DNA of 50,068 bases, from the NCBI GenBank assembly GCA_016215705.1, contig JACRIR010000239.1:1-50068 (forward strand), in the 5' to 3' direction. The stretch is from Candidatus Poribacteria bacterium. GTDB taxonomy: Bacteria; Abyssobacteria; SURF-5. A program made the translations under genes and the position numbers. The notes under the pieces were generated by a model. That model did not search any database and was not told where the DNA came from. It was given only the letters and a program-made list of their open reading frames with translations. Positions 491-15,675 of the stretch are shown here, in pieces. Every line of letters starts with the position of its first letter. Position 1 is the first letter of the stretch.

Positions 491-1048
491 TCAGACCGTC
501 CCTACTTTCACCCTGCGATACTTGTCCAGGATGATCGCGACCGACAACGGAATCGCCTCGCCCACGAACTTTTCGGCCGTCTGGTTGGCGCGCCGGTCGG
601 TCAAGCCTTCGGCGCCACGGAGATTGAATTTGAACGCGACGAGTTGGATGCATGCATCCACGAGATCGGCCGGTGGCGCTCCGGCGCCTGCATCAAAGAG
701 GCCGGCCGAATACGTGACCGCCACATTCAACTCGCCCGGTGTGAACAACCGCGACGGCAGTCGAACGTAGTCGTCATAGACTTTGAAATCTTCGGGCTGG
801 ACAGCCTCTCCATCGATCTCAAGCGATGCGACGGAGATAATGGGCGTGTTGTCGAGGAATAAGATATCGCTCGCGTTGCCGTCGTAGGTCTCGCCATAGC
901 TTTTTATCTCGAGCGTTCGACCGCAGTGGCCCTCGATCTGGCGGCTCGACGCAGCTATGAGCCTGCCCAACAGCGAGTCGAACTTTATCTCATCCGCCCC
1001 GATGTCCAAATACTCTTTCACGTCTGCCAGTGTTGTAAGGTCTGCCAT
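491..1048 (-). CDS. Phage gp6-like head-tail connector protein
   Basis: A 185-residue protein. Its N-terminus (MADLTTLADVKEYLDIGADE, then D-S-L-L-G-R-L-I-A-A-S-S-R-Q-I-E) is typical of the HK97 gp6-like connector family, which forms a ring under the portal and joins head to tail. The N-terminal half is helical. The middle (I-I-S-V-A-S-L-E-I-D-G near residue 70) and the end (A-C-I-Q-L-V-A-F-K-F-N) also match the usual connector pattern, and the length is somewhat above the usual 100-200. It lies directly downstream of the capsid gene, the standard order. Family assignment is from recalled motifs. Confidence 0.75.
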   Translation of the reverse strand: MADLTTLADVKEYLDIGADEIKFDSLLGRLIAASSRQIEGHCGRTLEIKSYGETYDGNASDILFLDNTPIISVASLEIDGEAVQPEDFKVYDDYVRLPSRLFTPGELNVAVTYSAGLFDAGAGAPPADLVDACIQLVAFKFNLRGAEGLTDRRANQTAEKFVGEAIPLSVAIILDKYRRVKVGTV

Positions 1049-1075
1049 CTCTTCACCGTCTCTCTATCCGGAAGC

Positions 1076-1100
1076 CTCGCCTTTCGCGCCTTCGCGGTAA
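1076..1100. repeat. Dispersed CTTTCGCGCCTTCGCGG spacer repeat
   Basis: A short copy of the pyrimidine-rich CTTTCGCC / GCGCCTTTGCGG repeat that recurs in intergenic space across the window. Here it separates two phage genes. Confidence 0.5.
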
Positions 1101-1182
1101 GATTCCTTTTTTTCTTCTTCTTGCGGTTGTAGGGGCGACTCGCCGAGCCGCCCCTTTCACCATTTAGACTTCACCCTTCGGA

Positions 1183-2478
1183 TTAGGAGGCGATGTTGTA
1201 CCCCAATCCCACGATCGTCTCCGCCGCCGAGTTCTGCACCGGCCGGAAATCCAGCCGCTGCGTCGCTATCGCCACGTCCTGGTCGGTCTCCATGTAAAGC
1301 TCATGGCTCACGCGCAGAGTGATGCTCCTGCGGTCGCCGTAGAGAAACGCGGGGCGGTAGACGAGCGGAAGCACGCTATTATCCGTCGTCACTCCGTCAT
1401 AGACTCCGCTCGCGTTCAAATCCTCGCGAATAAACTCGCTCACGATGACCGAAATCCCGTCGAGCTTCGCAAGCTCGCCAGTGAGAACGGTAGCCCTGCG
1501 GCCGTACTTGTCCACGGTCATGACTTCCCCGAGGCTGAGCATCTTATTGAAGACACTGACGCCTGCGATCCATGCAAGGTCGTTCGGGTTGACGCCGTAT
1601 TTGCCCATCGCCGTCCGTATCGCGCGCAGGCTCGCAATGTTGAACGTCGAGCAGTCCACCTTCGCAGCCGCGAGCGCCAGCTTGCGGTAGCCGCTCCAGG
1701 ACTTGCGCACGTCCGAGGCCGATGTGACATCGCTGTCCATATGCGTCGCGGTCGTGTCGCCGTTGATGGTCGCGTTCTCCTGCGCCTCGGCAAGCGCCCT
1801 CACGATCTTGTCGCGAAGCAGCGGAAGAATGGCTACGACGCTGTCTTCATCGAGCTCAGCCGAAACGAGCACGCGGCATGCGAGCTTGACGGCGTCGAAC
1901 GTGACGTTGCTCGAGCCGGGAGTCGAAGCGGTTATCTTCGTCGCCGTATCGCTGGTCGATTCGGCGGTCAGATACGCGACCGCGTCCGCGCCGTCGATCG
2001 GCAGCTTGAACGGGTTCGTCGGCATCGCGAACCGCCCGTGAAGCGCCGCCACCTTGAGGCCGAGCTTCACCTTCTGGATCAGGTCCGCCGAGAAGCCGGT
2101 GGGTATCCATTCGAGACCTTCGCCCGAGGTCGCCGTGTCCATCGCTTTGCGCAGTTCCGAGGCCTCGCGCGCAAAATCGCCCCACATTTTCAGGCTGCGA
2201 GGGTCGCGCCTGAGAAGCTTCGAGACGAGATAAATGTCGTCGGCGCGCGTCTGCAACTCGGCGGACATATTCGGCCTCGCCGAGCGTCCGGCCTCGGTGT
2301 CCACGCTGTATTCACCTTTCCGCGTCGCGCGGTCACGCACGGCCTCTTTCTGCTGTTTGAGCGCGTCTTGTATCATTGCGGCAATGAGTTCGTGCTGAGC
2401 GCCCGACTCGACTTTCTCCTTGATCTCGCGCACGAGTGTAAGCAGTTCCGTTTCCGGTTTGGTTTTTACTTCTGTCAT
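1183..2478 (-). CDS. HK97-family phage major capsid protein
   Basis: A 431-residue protein. Residues 1 to about 110 are charged and helical (T-E-L-L-T-L-V-R-E-I-K-E-K-V-E), like the delta (scaffold) domain that the prohead protease removes from HK97 capsid subunits. The rest carries the HK97-fold signatures: E-G-L-E-W-I-P-T-G-F near 123, A-L-A-E-A-Q-E-N-A-T-I-N-G-D near 230 to 245, and a C-terminal V-L-P-L-V-Y-R-P-A-F-L-Y-G-D-R-R-S-I-T-L-R-V. The ATG at 2478 is preceded by GGAGGAACTC. The gene sits between the protease and connector genes. The subunits would assemble the icosahedral head. No disruption is visible. Confidence 0.9.
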   Translation of the reverse strand: MTEVKTKPETELLTLVREIKEKVESGAQHELIAAMIQDALKQQKEAVRDRATRKGEYSVDTEAGRSARPNMSAELQTRADDIYLVSKLLRRDPRSLKMWGDFAREASELRKAMDTATSGEGLEWIPTGFSADLIQKVKLGLKVAALHGRFAMPTNPFKLPIDGADAVAYLTAESTSDTATKITASTPGSSNVTFDAVKLACRVLVSAELDEDSVVAILPLLRDKIVRALAEAQENATINGDTTATHMDSDVTSASDVRKSWSGYRKLALAAAKVDCSTFNIASLRAIRTAMGKYGVNPNDLAWIAGVSVFNKMLSLGEVMTVDKYGRRATVLTGELAKLDGISVIVSEFIREDLNASGVYDGVTTDNSVLPLVYRPAFLYGDRRSITLRVSHELYMETDQDVAIATQRLDFRPVQNSAAETIVGLGYNIAS

Positions 2479-2551
2479 GAGTTCCTCCGTTTTGCTTTTG
2501 TGTGCTTGTTTATTCTCTGCTTCTGTTTGTTGACGCCTTGATTGCGCGAAC

Positions 2552-3442
2552 TCATTCGCGCACGTTCGCTCCGTTCAGTTTCTCCATCACCCCCTTCAGA
2601 ATCGCGTGGGCTTCTCCGAGTTCGGCATCCATAACCGACACTTCCGGTTCTCCGGCTCCGTCAGCGGAGGGCGTCGCGACTTCAATGTGTTCCTTGTTCA
2701 CATTTCCTTGTTCCTGGTTTTCTTCCATCTCGGAACTCGAAACTATAGACTCGGAACCAGGAACCCTGCGCGCTTCGCGCAGTTCCCCTTCGTCTTGCTC
2801 CTTTCGTCTTTCCCCTTCGTTTGCGCAATTCGCGCAAACGATGTCCGTACCGCGCATCAGCCCCTTCGCCACCGAGAACAGCGCCCTGCGGTTAGCGGGA
2901 ATGCTGACGATTGCGACCTCATAGAGCCTGAGTTTCAGAATATGGTTTGCGCCGTCAACGAGTTTTTCCTCGACAACTTCGTACCCGATCGAGAAGGCCC
3001 GCAGCACGCCTTCCTCGATCAGCTTCCAAACTTTGCCCGCAGTCTCCGATATCTCCGCCCGGATGAACAGGCCGACGTCATCCGTGCGCGCATCGACCAC
3101 CTTGCCGATGGGGTCGGACCAGTCGTGCATATACGTCACGACCGGATTCGCCATGAAATCCTTCAGGCTTTCCGCAAAAGCGCCCGGCTCGACCACCTCG
3201 CCCGTGAGGTCGAGGTCACGTGTTGACGCATAGCCCTCGATGTTGCGCCGCGCTGGATCGGTCCCAACGAGCTTCATGTGGAACCGGAACGTGCGTTTCG
3301 GCCGCGCGCTCGCAATCGTCCGCTTGATCTCGGCCGCCTGCTCCGGTGTCAGCACCGTCTGGCGAAACGAGTCGTGAGCCGACTTGCGTGATGCCCCGTG
3401 ATTGGTTTCTCCCGATGTTTCCATTTCTGCCCGATTCTCCAT
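2552..3442 (-). CDS. HK97-family prohead protease with charged C-terminal tail
   Basis: A 296-residue serine protease of the U35 / HK97 gp4 type, which matures the capsid by cleaving the delta domain. The core spans about residues 50 to 190: G-Y-A-S-T-R-D-L-D-L-T-G-E near 70, catalytic His106 in T-Y-M-H-D-W, and Ser151 in R-A-F-S-I-G-Y. The last 100 residues are low-complexity and Glu/Lys-rich. Part of that tail (G-E-R-R-K-E-Q-D-E-G-E-L) is encoded by the CTTTCGTC-type spacer repeat at 2796 to 2831, so a repeat seems to have been read into the protein. No portal or terminase gene lies upstream, where they normally are. Confidence 0.88.
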   Translation of the reverse strand: MENRAEMETSGETNHGASRKSAHDSFRQTVLTPEQAAEIKRTIASARPKRTFRFHMKLVGTDPARRNIEGYASTRDLDLTGEVVEPGAFAESLKDFMANPVVTYMHDWSDPIGKVVDARTDDVGLFIRAEISETAGKVWKLIEEGVLRAFSIGYEVVEEKLVDGANHILKLRLYEVAIVSIPANRRALFSVAKGLMRGTDIVCANCANEGERRKEQDEGELREARRVPGSESIVSSSEMEENQEQGNVNKEHIEVATPSADGAGEPEVSVMDAELGEAHAILKGVMEKLNGANVRE

Positions 3443-3913: not shown

Positions 3914-5476
3914 TCAAAGGACGATTGTCAGGTACCGCATGAACCTCTCTATATCGGGAAAGCAAATATCCGCGTGCGGGCTGACCCGGTTATTCTTGTC
4001 AAAGAGAATGCAAGCCCACCGGCAATCCGCTTCACGGCACGACAGGATATCGTACAATGAGTCGCCCACGCAAAGAGTCCTCCCGGGCGACGCGCCGAGG
4101 CGCCTGGCTGCCTCGGATACGGGAGCGCCGGATGGTTTGTAGAGGCCGGAGTCGCGCGTGATGACTACACCAAACTCCAGCTTGAATTCCTCGAGAAGGT
4201 AGGCGACATTGACATCGGAGTTGTTCGTGACCAGGGCCGTCTTGATGCCTTTTCGCGCGAGCAACTCGAGCAGCTCGCGGGCGCCGGGCTTGAGCCTGGC
4301 GGCAAGCGTGGCCGCATGTTCGATCTCGCGAAGTTTCGCCCATTTCCTTTCTCTTTCCTCTCCCTCGAGGCCGTTCAGATCGTCGAGAATCGAAACGCCC
4401 TTCACGTCGAGCGCGGCCCGTATGGAGAGCCAGTCGTAGTCCGAATCGATCAACGTGCCGTCCATATCGAGGACGCACGCTTCTATTCCTTCGAGGAGCC
4501 GCGCCCTGAGTATTTCGTCTCTCTCAAAGCGGGCGAGCGTGGTGGACAATTCGTCTCTTGCCGCCTCCGCCTCCCCGATCCAGAAGAACGGAATGCCTCG
4601 GCCGGCGAGCGCTTTTTCCAACTCTTCTTTTCCTTCCCGCGCGCAACCGACGAGCAGGCTGCCTGAGCCTATCAGCCCGAACGGGCTCATTCCGAGATCG
4701 GAACAGATAAGTTTCGTAGCGGAAAGCATTGGAACGCGGTCGGCGTCGACGCTAACGAATCGCCCCGAAGCCCTCGCCATCTCATACAGGGCCTCGCCGA
4801 CGCCACCCTCGGTCACATCGTGCAGGGCGCTCACGTACGGGCATGCCGCTGCAATAGTGGCCTCGGGCACGACGCTGAGCCAGTCTCTCTTCAGAATCTC
4901 CTCGGCCTCGCGAAACGCCGCAGGTCCGTGAATCTCGCGCAGGCGCTCTCCGAACTCGCTCAGAAGGATCGATGTCCCTTCAAGACCCGCCCATTTCGTC
5001 ATCCCGACAAGGTCCCCGTCTCGCAAGCCGCCGGTGGTAATCGGACGCCCCATCACTTTCCCGAGCATTGTGCCGACGATGACGGTTTGGGGCAGGCCGG
5101 GCGAGACCTCGGTGTGCCCGCCGATGAGCGCCACGCCCAAGGTTTCGCATGTTTCTCGAATCTCATCGAGCAGCATGCCGACGTACTCCTCGTCTGCCGC
5201 TTCGGGTGAGACAAGAACGACGACTATATAGTAGAGCGGCCTGGCGCCGCGAACAACAATATCATTTGCATTGACGATGACCGAGAGTTTGCCCGCGCCC
5301 TTGGATGTGAATGTGATCGGGTCGGATGCGACGGCCCATGTCTCGCCGCCAATCTTGATGAGCGCCGCATCCTCGCCGAGAGCGGGTCCGAGAATGACAT
5401 CGGGTGGCAGCTTCATGCGCACTTTTTCCGCAATCTTGTCCCACGGCGCCTTGCCGGGAGAAAGTTTCTTAGTCAT
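3914..5476 (-). CDS. PurM-type AIR synthase-related protein fused to a HAD phosphatase
   Basis: A 520-residue two-domain protein. Residues 1 to about 320 have the PurM/HypE/ThiL superfamily pattern of ATP-dependent enzymes: G-E-D-A-A-L near 34, S-D-P-I-T-F near 51, G-G-H-T-E at 119 to 123 and H-D-V-T-E-G-G-V-G-E-A-L at 219 to 230. The HypE C-terminal Pro-Arg-Ile-Cys end is absent. Residues 331 to 520 form a HAD hydrolase with D337-M-D339-G-T, T417-N-N-S, K447 and G471-D-S-L-Y-D476. That is a complete phosphatase catalytic set, close to the phosphoglycolate phosphatase/pyrophosphatase type. The fusion implies one pathway in which an ATP-made phosphorylated intermediate or side product is dephosphorylated. 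The substrate is unknown. It is unlikely to be SelD, since it lacks the N-terminal Cys/Sec loop. Confidence 0.82.
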   Translation of the reverse strand: MTKKLSPGKAPWDKIAEKVRMKLPPDVILGPALGEDAALIKIGGETWAVASDPITFTSKGAGKLSVIVNANDIVVRGARPLYYIVVVLVSPEAADEEYVGMLLDEIRETCETLGVALIGGHTEVSPGLPQTVIVGTMLGKVMGRPITTGGLRDGDLVGMTKWAGLEGTSILLSEFGERLREIHGPAAFREAEEILKRDWLSVVPEATIAAACPYVSALHDVTEGGVGEALYEMARASGRFVSVDADRVPMLSATKLICSDLGMSPFGLIGSGSLLVGCAREGKEELEKALAGRGIPFFWIGEAEAARDELSTTLARFERDEILRARLLEGIEACVLDMDGTLIDSDYDWLSIRAALDVKGVSILDDLNGLEGEERERKWAKLREIEHAATLAARLKPGARELLELLARKGIKTALVTNNSDVNVAYLLEEFKLEFGVVITRDSGLYKPSGAPVSEAARRLGASPGRTLCVGDSLYDILSCREADCRWACILFDKNNRVSPHADICFPDIERFMRYLTIVL

Positions 5477-11477: not shown

Positions 11478-12875
11478 TTACTCGAGCCAGTGACATATGC
11501 GCGCGCTGCACAAGAAGAAACTATTGTGCCTTATCTTCTTGATCCGCTCTTCGTAGACAAACTTCGGACTGTTCTCCGGATTGTGGCATGTTTCACATTT
11601 TTCTCTCTTCACCTCGCCGTATTTGTCTTTGAGCGGCTCCTCAACGTGCTTGCTGCCCGGCCCATGACAGTTCTCGCAGCCAACGTTTTCTAACATCGGC
11701 GTCGCGTCGGCAGTGGCGAATCCCGTCGTGTACCCGAACCCCACTACATGGCATTCGACGCATTCAGGGTCATATTCGCGCCCTTTCTTCGCGATGGGCT
11801 CGAAAGCGTGCGCATGTTTGTCCTTTCGGCGGAACCGGAAAGAAGACCACGAATGACACTTCCTGCACTTCTCGTTTCCGGTGAACTCGCCCGCCGGGTG
11901 TTCGGTCCTCGGAAATGATCCCAGAAGGTTCTCCGCCTTCACCATCTGCTGGTAGTCATCGATCGCGGCGAGAATGCGCGCAGAATCGCTCACTGTCTTG
12001 TCCAGCTTCTTGACCGAATATGACTCAAGCTTCGCGCCGCCGGCTCTTGTCATGAATCGGCATACACCTATGTGCATCCCCTTGGCGCCTGCGAACACAA
12101 TTGATGTGTCGCCCACCGAAATCGGCGCAGGGTTCGGATCGTCGCCGCTGTGACTTGCGATGATGAGGTCGATGCTCGAGAATCGCTCGGCGACCGCGCG
12201 CGCCTCCTCTTCGGGCATGTGACCAAGCAGCACAAGCAGGTCGGTCTTTTTCCGAAGCGCCGGAATGAGTTTTTCCAACACGGGTCCGTAATCTTCGACA
12301 ACAAGCTCCGGATTGGTCTCTTCGATGGCGCCCTTGAATTCAGTGGAGATTACTCCCGTGACGGCGACAGCCACCGCCTTTTCAGAAGGACCCGTCTTCC
12401 GGACGACTGACTGCTGGAAAACGGACTCCCCCCGGATGTTGGCAATGTTGGCGCTGAGAAGAGGGATACCCGTAAAGTCAGAGACGTATTTGAGATAGTC
12501 ATGCCCGATCAGCAAATCTTGCTCGCCGACGTTCGCCGCAAGATAACCCATTTCCGCCATAGCTTTCATGGCGGTTTCATACTTCAGCTCCGCCTGGCGG
12601 CCGTATCCCCTGTTCAGGTCACCATTATCCAGCAGAAGGACTTCGCCGCTTGAGCGCATCGCGCCGATGAACGTGTCCCGCCTGGGAAGACCTCCCAGTT
12701 GCTCCTCGCTTCACCCACAAGGCTCAAGGTAGCCATGAACGTCGCTCGTAAAGAGAATCGACACCTCTGCGCCGCCTTCAGGCTGCGGGCCGATCGAAGA
12801 CGGAACAAGAAGGAGCACGACGACAAAGAAACTCAATAACGCGCTTTGTTTTGTGTGAAAATGTGATGGGATCAT
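11478..12875 (-). CDS. Candidate selenoprotein: secreted metallophosphatase-multihaem cytochrome c, TGA at codon 55
   Basis: Read through one in-frame TGA (12713 to 12711), this is a 465-codon gene. Residues 12 to 30 are a signal peptide (L-L-S-F-F-V-V-V-L-L-L). Residues 38 to about 300 resemble the UshA/5'-nucleotidase metallophosphoesterase fold: F-T-S-D-V-H-G-Y-L-E-P-C53-G54-TGA55, then S-E-E-Q-L-G-G-L-P-R-R, D-N-G-D-L, N-V-G-E-Q-D and L-L-G-H-M. Residues 330 to 435 hold four CXXCH haem motifs (Cys337, 372, 400, 427) and one CX4CH near the end, as in cytochrome c554-type proteins. Without read-through, the ATG at 12659 would give a leaderless cytoplasmic stump that cannot receive haem. As I recall, relatives carry Pro-Cys-Gly-Cys at this site, so TGA replaces Cys. 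A SECIS-like hairpin follows. The alternative is a nonsense mutation. Confidence 0.72.
12682..12698 (-). promoter_or_regulatory. SECIS-like hairpin downstream of the in-frame TGA
   Basis: In the mRNA, arms CUGGGA and UCCCAG (6 perfect pairs) enclose a GGUCU loop. Twelve nt separate the UGA from the stem and 18 nt separate it from the loop. Bacterial SECIS rules known to me ask for a loop 16 to 37 nt after UGA with G in its first two positions. The E. coli fdhF loop AGGUCU is matched if the top A-U pair opens. Confidence 0.65.
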
Positions 12876-12885
12876 CCGGGAAATG

Positions 12886-12915
12886 ATTATAGTCGTCAGA
12901 CGCTTGGAGAGTCAA
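12886..12915 (-). promoter_or_regulatory. sigma70-type promoter of the candidate selenoprotein gene
   Basis: On the minus strand, TTGACT (12915 to 12910), an 18-bp spacer and TATAAT (12891 to 12886). The start would fall near 12879, only about 4 nt before the ATG at 12875, so the mRNA may be nearly leaderless. The position supports the long reading frame through TGA. Confidence 0.65.
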
Positions 12916-13146: not shown

Positions 13147-14514
13147 TCAGGAGTCCGCTACTCGTGTGGGCGGACTCTCCTTTTCTTCGTTCTTTCTCTT
13201 CCCTTTCGCCTTGTCGCCTTCGCCTTTCGCCTTTTTCTCAAAAGGAGCCGACGTTTCCCGCAGCATCTGGGCTTTCGAGACCATCAGCGAGCGGATGTAC
13301 CCGACGGTCACCGTCCTCGCTTGTTGAGTCTCAGCCCTTTGCCCGAAACGCCTGCAAAGTGAGGCAAAACCCGCAGCGTACCCCCGAAGGTTCGTCAGGT
13401 CACGATTCTGAATGGCTGACCGTAGGCTGTTCTTGACGCAGAACCACGCAATCGCCGGCAGGCGTTGGCGAAGGATTGGGCCGGGCATATTTCTGGCAAC
13501 TACCCTTATGAAATGCCGGCAACTATAAAAGCGGGCCGTCCGGCCGTGATAAGGAACAGTCGCCCCGCCGGCATGATACACGACTGCGCCGGCCCCGTAC
13601 ATGCACTTGTATCCCATTAGTTGCGCGCGAAAACTCAGGTCCGCGTCGTCGTAGCAAAGAAAAAAATCCTCGTCAAAAAGTCCGGTTCGCTCGAGCATCT
13701 TCCGCCGGAACATCGCAGCGCCGCCGCACGCCCCGAACACAAGTCGGTCGCCGGCATACTCCGGCCCGTCGGAGCAATAAAACCCCCGGTCATAAGGCAG
13801 CCCATAGTCGGTTATCCCGATACCCGCATTGTTGACGCGGGTCTTGTCCCACAAAAAGAGCATCTTCGACGCGCAGAACCCGATCTCTTCGCTCTCGAGC
13901 ATCGGGCGCGTGAGACGCTCGAGCCATCCGGAGTCGGCGACGGCGTCGTTGTTGAGCAGCGCTATGAATTCGCCGGAGGATTCGCGGATGCCCGCGTTCG
14001 TGGCGCGCGCAAATCCGGCGTTATACCCCATCGAGATGAGCTTGATTTCCGGTTGCGTGTGTGCGGGAAATCCCCCCTCCCCCCCTTTGCTAAAGGGGGG
14101 TAACAATACATTTCTATCAGAGGGAAGCAATGAGACGCCTTTGGCAGAGGACTCTCCAGAGTCCCCCCCTTTGCTAACGGCCCTTCCCGCATCTCCCCCT
14201 TTCGAAATGATTCCTCCTGCATCCCCCTTTTGGGAAAGGCCCGCTCTTACGTCCCCCCTCTTGGAAAGGCCTCCCCCCAGCTTCCCCCCTTTTGCAAAGG
14301 GGGGTGAGGGGGGATTTATCAAACATGCCCCATATACGCTTTTCAGAAATTCCGCCGAGCCGTCACTGGAGGCGTTGTCCACCACGAAAACCTCGACGGG
14401 CTTTAAGGTCTGCGACAAGACGGAATCAAGGCAGTCGGCCAAAAACCTCCTGCCGTTGTAGTTCGTGATGACAACGCTTATGGACGGGATTTCAACCCGA
14501 GGTCGAATCGTCAT
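13147..14514 (-). CDS. GT2-family glycosyltransferase with in-frame repeat insertion
   Basis: A 455-residue GT-A transferase of the rhamnosyltransferase type, probably for polysaccharide assembly at the inner membrane. The nucleotide-sugar fold starts I-S-V-V-I-T-N-Y-N-G (12 to 21) and F-V-V-D-N-A-S-S-D-G-S (43 to 53). It resumes at P-E-I-K-L-I with G-Y-N-A-G-F-A-R-A-T-N-A-G, L-L-N-N-D (187 to 190), G-A-C-G-G-A-A-M-F-R-R and E-D-F-F-L-C-Y-D-D-A-D-L. Between Tyr61 and about residue 153 sits a low-complexity insertion rich in K-G-G-D units. The last 30 residues (K-G-E-G-D-K-A-K-G-K-R) are read from a CTTTCGCC spacer repeat. The ATG at 14514 overlaps the end of the AI-2E gene by 23 nt, so the two are coupled. 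Confidence 0.85.
   Translation of the reverse strand: MTIRPRVEIPSISVVITNYNGRRFLADCLDSVLSQTLKPVEVFVVDNASSDGSAEFLKSVYGACLINPPSPPFAKGGKLGGGLSKRGDVRAGLSQKGDAGGIISKGGDAGRAVSKGGDSGESSAKGVSLLPSDRNVLLPPFSKGGEGGFPAHTQPEIKLISMGYNAGFARATNAGIRESSGEFIALLNNDAVADSGWLERLTRPMLESEEIGFCASKMLFLWDKTRVNNAGIGITDYGLPYDRGFYCSDGPEYAGDRLVFGACGGAAMFRRKMLERTGLFDEDFFLCYDDADLSFRAQLMGYKCMYGAGAVVYHAGGATVPYHGRTARFYSCRHFIRVVARNMPGPILRQRLPAIAWFCVKNSLRSAIQNRDLTNLRGYAAGFASLCRRFGQRAETQQARTVTVGYIRSLMVSKAQMLRETSAPFEKKAKGEGDKAKGKRKNEEKESPPTRVADS
14059..14319. repeat. CCCCTTTGCAAAGGGG-type repeat block inside the glycosyltransferase gene
   Basis: About 260 nt made of two outer CCCCCCTTTGC(T/A)AAAGGGGGG palindromes (near 14083 and 14285) and four to five degenerate 30-nt units between them, each with TTTGGGAAAGG- or TTTCGAAATG-like cores. 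Read on the minus strand it gives 10-residue units such as G-L-S-Q-K-G-D-A-G-G. No stop appears in the coding frame. Confidence 0.85.
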
Positions 14515-15598
14515 GTGCCTTTGACAAAAAGAGGTTGGACTGCTTGTAGCGGGCCACCGCCTCACCGACCAACACCTTCAGAACTGCAGCAAGCGGCACA
14601 GCCAAGATGATTCCCAGAAAACCGAGTAATTGGGCAAACGTGAGGATGGCAAGGATTATGACAACAGGGTGAAGGCCTATCCTGTCACCCATGATCTTCG
14701 GAGATATGACAGTTCCCTCGAGCAGTTGGCCAACCACAAAAACGCAGATTGCTCCAAGCGGGTGCGCGAGGTCCGCAAACTCGACAAGCGCCAGAACCGC
14801 CGCGAGAATAATCCCGCTTGCCGTGCCAAGATAAGGAACGATCTGTCCGTAGCCTCCCACGATTCCAATCACCAGAGCGAAAGGCACACCGACGATGCTC
14901 AGACCGATGCAGTAGATGACCGCAAGAATTGTGCAGACGGTTATCTGACCGCGGAAAAAGCCTCGCAGATTGGCATCCACTTTCAAAACGACTCTGAGCG
15001 CCGGTTCTTTGTATGCCGGGGGAATTAGCGCCTGCGCCTTTGCCGTCACTTTATTGAAATCCTTCAGAAGATAGACGCCCACAACAGCAAAAAGCAGGAA
15101 GTTGGCGACGAAACCGACTACCCCGACTGTGCGCGTCACGATGCCCGCAAGCAGTGTCTGCATGGATTGCAGCAGCTGGGGCATGTGGCTCTCGAGGGCG
15201 TCCAGCAGAGCAGTGAGATTCGAGGCGACCTTTCCGGCTATCCGCGAGTCCATGAGCTGAACAACCTGTATCCGCAGTCTTTCTTCCATCTCAGGAAAGC
15301 GTTGGTTGAGGGATTGTGCGATGTCGCCGGCTTCCCGAACCAGCCGGGGAATGATTATGAGAAGCGATCCTGTGAAAGCCGCCATAATGAGCGCCAGCAG
15401 TGTGGCTATCGTGACCACGCGCGGCACGCGGCGCTTCTCGAGAGCGTCGACCAGCGGATGGAAAATATAAGCGACGATGAAAGCGAGTGCAAGCGGGATG
15501 AGTATCTGGCGCAACTCATAACACGCCCACAGGAACAACGCAACCAGCGCAAGGACAACGACCAGGCGGACCCATATGTTATCCCAAAGCTTTCGCAA
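14492..15598 (-). CDS. AI-2E family transporter (UPF0118, PerM/TqsA-like)
   Basis: A 368-residue polytopic membrane protein. The N-terminal pair of segments (L-V-V-V-L-A-L-V-A-L-F-L-W-A, then I-P-L-A-L-A-F-I-V-A-Y-I-F-H-P) and the D-A-L-E-K-R-R-V-P-R motif are typical, as is the C-terminal group (Y-L-G-T-A-S-G, G-D-R-I-G-L-H-P-V, L-G-F-L-G-I-I-L-A-V-P-L-A-A). Seven to eight membrane segments are expected. Family members export autoinducer-2 or act as Na+/H+ antiporters; which applies here is unknown. The start is a TTG at 15598 with AGGAGG four nt before it. It is followed by the overlapping glycosyltransferase gene. Confidence 0.88.
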   Translation of the reverse strand: MRKLWDNIWVRLVVVLALVALFLWACYELRQILIPLALAFIVAYIFHPLVDALEKRRVPRVVTIATLLALIMAAFTGSLLIIIPRLVREAGDIAQSLNQRFPEMEERLRIQVVQLMDSRIAGKVASNLTALLDALESHMPQLLQSMQTLLAGIVTRTVGVVGFVANFLLFAVVGVYLLKDFNKVTAKAQALIPPAYKEPALRVVLKVDANLRGFFRGQITVCTILAVIYCIGLSIVGVPFALVIGIVGGYGQIVPYLGTASGIILAAVLALVEFADLAHPLGAICVFVVGQLLEGTVISPKIMGDRIGLHPVVIILAILTFAQLLGFLGIILAVPLAAVLKVLVGEAVARYKQSNLFLSKAHDDSTSG

Positions 15599-15675
15599 AT
15601 CGCCTCCTAACAGAACAGGTTCACGGTTTACAGTTTACGGTTCACAGTCTACGGTTGAAGAAGCATTTGCTCCTC

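Follow-up and report, generated by a model that had tools for sequence, protein, structure and literature searches.

The UshA-like selenoproteins appear as 'COG0737, UshA-like, CxU' among the previously described selenoprotein families in the portion of Zhang and Gladyshev (2008) that treats them (PMC2398784). This portion mentions neither a cytochrome fusion nor a loss of catalytic residues. The listing is repeated in a 2022 review (PMC9312934) and in a 2026 review, which gives the accession NF041198 (PMC13188914). In the literature searched, no function was described for the UshA-like (PCGU) family. A second family, NF049981 (UshA_like_Sel_2, UshA-like (seleno)protein family 2), has a related fold and carries a CxxU motif (PMC13188914). 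Beyond the selenoproteins, the closest described systems are the UshA and CD73 5'-nucleotidases, the periplasmic thiosulfohydrolase SoxB, which is tied to sulfur redox chemistry, and the multihaem cytochrome c554.

The window analysed here is a 50,068-nucleotide stretch of Candidatus Poribacteria DNA, and one of its genes is a diverged additional member of the already known selenoprotein family. Its product scored 288 bits against NCBIfam NF041198 (UshA_like_PCGU, 'UshA-like (seleno)protein'; curated cut-off 275). In a search of the genome, the matching pieces covered positions 3-305 and 356-519 of the 519-position profile, with a joined score of 280.4. Since these matches span both halves, the curated family includes the cytochrome half, and the fusion is known. 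The sequence-only reading had announced a new selenoprotein and knew of no UshA-like/cytochrome fusion in selenoprotein lists. Given the profile match and the three published lists, novelty is not supported, and the fusion is part of the family definition itself.

The window protein shares with NF041198 the PCGU motif, the exported phosphoesterase-fold domain and the C554-like tetrahaem C-terminus, and it agrees with the entry of Zhang and Gladyshev in its CxU spacing and COG (PMC2398784). It differs from the other NF041198 members in its divergence (288 bits as compared to up to 631 for Desulfobacterota members), its origin in another phylum, an extra C-terminal CX4CH motif and the least degenerate metal site sampled. 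Against NF049981, it reached only 31 bits (cut-off 140). Overall, we consider, with a probability of roughly 0.8, that the gene encodes a selenocysteine (Sec)-decoding member of the known PCGU family, which would be of a redox type rather than a 5'-nucleotidase.

Reading frame and domain architecture

On the minus strand, the frame from the ATG at 12875 to the TAA at 11478 comprises 466 codons, with the TGA at codon 55 as the single internal stop, in the context YLEPCG-U-SEEQLGGLPRR. The P-C-G-(TGA) motif and the coordinates given in the sequence-only reading were exact. When the TGA is read as Sec, the 465-residue protein consists of an apparent signal peptide, a metallophosphoesterase-fold domain and a region with four CXXCH motifs. 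Domain and haem motif matches thus bore out the exported phosphoesterase-fold/multihaem fusion that had been proposed. The ORF from 12659, which encodes 393 aa, lacks the signal peptide, motif I and the PCGU motif. As had been argued from the letters, upstream extension restores SDVHG and the apparent signal peptide, the longer frame gaining MIPSHFHTKQSALLSFFVVVLLLVPSS and SDVHG over the short one. The coordinates of all features are collected in Table 1.

Table 1. Features of the UshA-like selenoprotein gene, in positions of the window
Feature	Positions	Strand	Basis or remark
Complete CDS, 465 aa + TAA stop, codon 55 = Sec	11478..12875	-	NF041198 member
Sigma-70-type promoter, TTGACT-18-TATAAT	12886..12915	-	10 nt from TATAAT end to ATG; conserved in orthologue
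N-terminal signal peptide, about residues 1-30	12786..12875	-	judged by eye
In-frame TGA, almost certainly selenocysteine 55 in PCGU	12711..12713	-	frame reading, homologue alignment
Bacterial SECIS hairpin, CUGGGA-GGUCU-UCCCAG, 12 nt past UGA	12682..12698	-	stem, loop and covariation analyses
Metallophosphoesterase-fold domain, residues 36-270	12066..12770	-	5/7 canonical site residues; motif III NH -> EQ
Haem motif 1, CRKCH, from residue 337	11853..11867	-	motif scan, alignment
Haem motif 2, CVECH, from residue 372	11748..11762	-	motif scan, alignment
Haem motif 3, CENCH, from residue 400	11664..11678	-	motif scan, alignment
Haem motif 4, CETCH, from residue 427	11583..11597	-	motif scan, alignment
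Possible fifth haem motif, CSARICH (CX4CH), residues 456-462	11490..11510	-	motif scan

The start was assessed against an orthologue from another genus of the same family, with 60% identity and a TGA at the identical codon. The arrangement TTGACT-18-TATAAT-10-ATG occurs once in the window and in none of 100 shuffles, and the orthologue has identical promoter elements with identical spacing before its ATG. Across the 17 codons preceding the TGA, the two genes differ at 12 positions, nine of which are third positions; these codons appear to evolve as coding sequence and look to be under purifying selection. The proposed start at 12875, with its TTGACT/TATAAT promoter, is upheld by these comparisons. 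No Shine-Dalgarno sequence was found between the TATAAT and the ATG (12876-12915 region). Considering also that the TATAAT ends 10 nt from the ATG, the mRNA is probably leaderless. In 126 kb of the genome, TATAAT-N8-12-ATG occurred eight times, as compared to two to three times for control triplets, all of these being small counts.

The haem half scored 46.2 bits against Pfam PF13435 (C554-like multihaem; cut-off 20.8), and residues 331-408 align with cytochrome c554 (PDB 1bvb; E 1.2e-8), from which the window protein differs in that the haem domain is fused to a selenoprotein domain. Its C-terminus, CSARICHWL[E/D], is found only in the window protein and the same-family orthologue, and is absent from the other members examined. 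CX4CH motifs bind haem in the tetrahaem cytochrome c3 of Desulfovibrio, so that a fifth haem is possible in the window protein. This haem-like motif had been overlooked in the earlier reading.

The metal site and a proposed redox function

Alignment with CD73 places the seven metal and catalytic positions of 5'-nucleotidases at D45, H47, D86, E118 (Asn), Q119 (the catalytic His), H219 and H242. Five of the canonical residues are therefore kept in the window protein (D45, H47, D86, H219 and H242), while the Asn-His pair is replaced by Glu-Gln. We extended the comparison to 49 sequences, namely 48 family members and, as the outgroup, an ordinary 5'-nucleotidase, with the counts depending on their MAFFT alignment. 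The outgroup retains all seven residues, whereas the catalytic Asn-His pair is kept in 0/48 family members, and 39 of the 48 retain at most two of the seven. Neither the orthologue nor most relatives have H47. Because the Asn-His pair is lost in all 48 members and further ligands are lost in most, 'UshA-like' probably describes a fold and not an activity.

The residues that are conserved in the family alignment lie elsewhere, in PCG[U/C] and GG[L/V]x[R/K]. Fused members additionally conserve the four CXXCH motifs and two further histidines. With PCG[U/C] and the haems conserved and the metal ligands not, selection has thus kept the Cys-Gly-Sec motif and the haems, not the hydrolase. As compared to UshA and CD73, the window protein shares the fold and part of the dimetal site, but it lacks the motif III Asn-His, carries Cys-Gly-Sec, and has a cytochrome in place of the nucleotidase C-domain.

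Alternatively, the window protein could truly act in the periplasm as a nucleotidase or phosphatase, or as a SoxB-like thiosulfohydrolase, in which the Sec is an extra metal ligand or a regulatory switch and the haems are redox sensors. The fold does match both the 5'-nucleotidases and SoxB, and the window copy retains five site residues; as the least degenerate metal site among the family members sampled, it makes some hydrolysis or metal binding possible in this protein. However, E118 and Q119 stand here in place of the Asn-His pair of motif III, which none of the 48 family members has, and H47 is not shared by the orthologue. As for SoxB, the match to TIGR04486 was 56.8 bits against a cut-off of 550, and SoxB has neither Sec nor fused haems. 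We therefore regard a working hydrolase as unlikely.

We instead favor a redox enzyme. UGA codon 55 is almost certainly decoded as Sec by SelB and tRNA-Sec, directed by the downstream hairpin. The product would be exported and would acquire its four or perhaps five c-type haems outside the cytoplasm. The phosphoesterase-fold domain would not be a working 5'-nucleotidase, as the absence of the Asn-His pair from all aligned members suggests. For the redox mechanism itself, built from residue conservation, we see about even odds. Cys53-Gly-Sec55, predicted to lie on the loop that follows strand 1 and borders the entrance of the former active site, would form the redox center as a selenenylsulfide/selenolate pair. 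The haem domain would then pass electrons between this center and a periplasmic multihaem chain, and possible substrates are compounds of sulfur, selenium or a metal(loid). A structure prediction from a two-sequence alignment had a mean pLDDT of 38, too poor to place Sec55 near a haem or metal.

Gene neighborhoods bear on this proposal outside the window's lineage. At four Desulfobacterota loci (L094, L095, L096 and L101), the UshA-like tetrahaem selenoprotein gene adjoins genes for a 16-haem NrfH-like and a 9-haem DmsE-like cytochrome, and some of these loci also carry a second, haem-free UshA-like paralogue. The cluster is possibly an undescribed electron-transfer module. Cytochrome neighbors of this type were not found beside the window gene, which is flanked by a convergent VanZ-like gene, also present beside the orthologue, and, by inspection, by glycosyltransferase and ComF-like genes; these neighbors give no hint of function. 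The pattern of residue conservation, together with the cytochrome neighbors in Desulfobacterota, leads us to favor an exported selenium-dependent redox enzyme.

For the UshA-like family as a whole, we give an even chance to the reading that its members are no phosphatases, but pseudo-phosphoesterases that have become Sec-dependent oxidoreductases of the periplasm with a direct connection to multihaem cytochromes. To our knowledge, no characterized selenoenzyme has such an architecture. The interest of the window gene rests mainly on this family function: a family that has long been listed with no function assigned gains a testable redox hypothesis. The present analysis adds the loss of Asn-His throughout the sampled family and the CX4CH motif of the window's branch.

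Selenocysteine decoding at codon 55

At the Sec site, the 49 aligned sequences have U in 36, C in 11, and R and K in one each, the K being that of the outgroup. Conservation of Cys or TGA at codon 55, which the sequence-only reading had expected of homologues, is thus seen in nearly the entire alignment. Furthermore, CGC occupies the site in the two next most similar phosphoesterase-tetrahaem fusions, which come from other lineages and share the architecture. Together with the aligned Cys residues, they confirm the statement that relatives carry Cys-Gly-Cys. Among the three genomes of the window's phylum that were searched, one other genus has the orthologue, and it also has a second paralogue, likewise with a TGA. 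In a phylum sample around Desulfobulbus, NF041198 matched in 99 of 297 genomes, and most matches contain one internal TGA. In one member (L060, G114:C168), PSGR replaces PCGU and the haems are retained, a natural loss of both redox residues. An in-frame TAA was flagged in two relatives; the aligned stretches contain none, and the TAA seems to lie outside the matched part.

The genome encodes the machinery that such a codon requires. A profile search identified selB (C228:43728-45614; 371.5 bits, cut-off 242), and selA adjoins it (580 bits). The selD gene (391 bits) has its own in-frame TGA, in GG-U-ACK. The tRNA-Sec matched Rfam with 68 bits, and ARAGORN concurred, assigning the anticodon TCA. 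With all four genes found in the search that had been proposed for them, the organism has a complete Sec system. A second tRNA-Sec candidate (C42) was assigned to tRNA-Leu by ARAGORN.

The SECIS hairpin was compared among 31 Sec genes of the family. The loop begins with GG in all 31 and is exactly GGUCU in 26; the SECIS of E. coli fdhF likewise has GGUCU as its apical loop. The stems fall into two registers, with a 5-nt and a 6-nt loop. Because a single-register count over all 31 genes would be poor, pairs were counted on the 11 genes sharing the window's register, in which 97% of the cells pair, as compared to 20-56% with the partner slid. The loop-closing pair is A-U in the window gene and its orthologue and C-G in the others, both changes being at synonymous third positions. 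The hairpin was not formed in any of the seven homologues without Sec that were examined. The stems were overall stronger than synonymous recodings, with a Stouffer combined p of ~1e-16 that is inflated because the genes are related and not independent. The window gene alone was not extreme against synonymous shuffles (SECIS energy p = 0.11), and an Rfam search with the hairpin gave no meaningful match.

The Sec machinery, the hairpin and the TGA/Cys exchange among homologues all back the claim that the TGA encodes Sec, and on these comparisons codon 55 almost certainly does so. Taken together, Sec decoding and membership of the UshA-like (PCGU) family are held with very high confidence. In a draft genome of 270 contigs, the TGA might be a real stop in a pseudogene or a miscall, with only the 12659 ORF or nothing being made, but the identical TGA in the orthologue and in most homologues, the SECIS hairpin and the apparent purifying selection on the codons before the TGA render this very improbable. 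Reading of the TGA as another amino acid, through a genome-wide change of the code or Trp insertion by near-cognate readthrough, would suit a frame that is open under any TGA-reading code, but has hardly any chance against a homologous residue that is Cys and never Trp, a full Sec system in the genome and a SECIS at the site. Annotation pipelines that treat TGA as a stop would truncate or misannotate the gene at 11478-12875, and the correct call therefore matters for the Poribacteria genome.

Other loci in the window

Three consecutive minus-strand ORFs at 491-3442 are phage head-like by eye (connector, major capsid and prohead protease) and form a probable prophage remnant. The 520-aa ORF at 3914-5476 resembles an AIR-synthase/HypE-type domain fused to a HAD-type hydrolase, and it gave a weak match to the selD model (7e-15). 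At 13147-14565, a glycosyltransferase-like ORF contains inserted, repeated K-G-G peptides (PPFAKGG, SKGGD), suggestive of in-frame translation of a dispersed DNA repeat. The letters PPLxRGG at 15655 resemble these K-G-G repeats.
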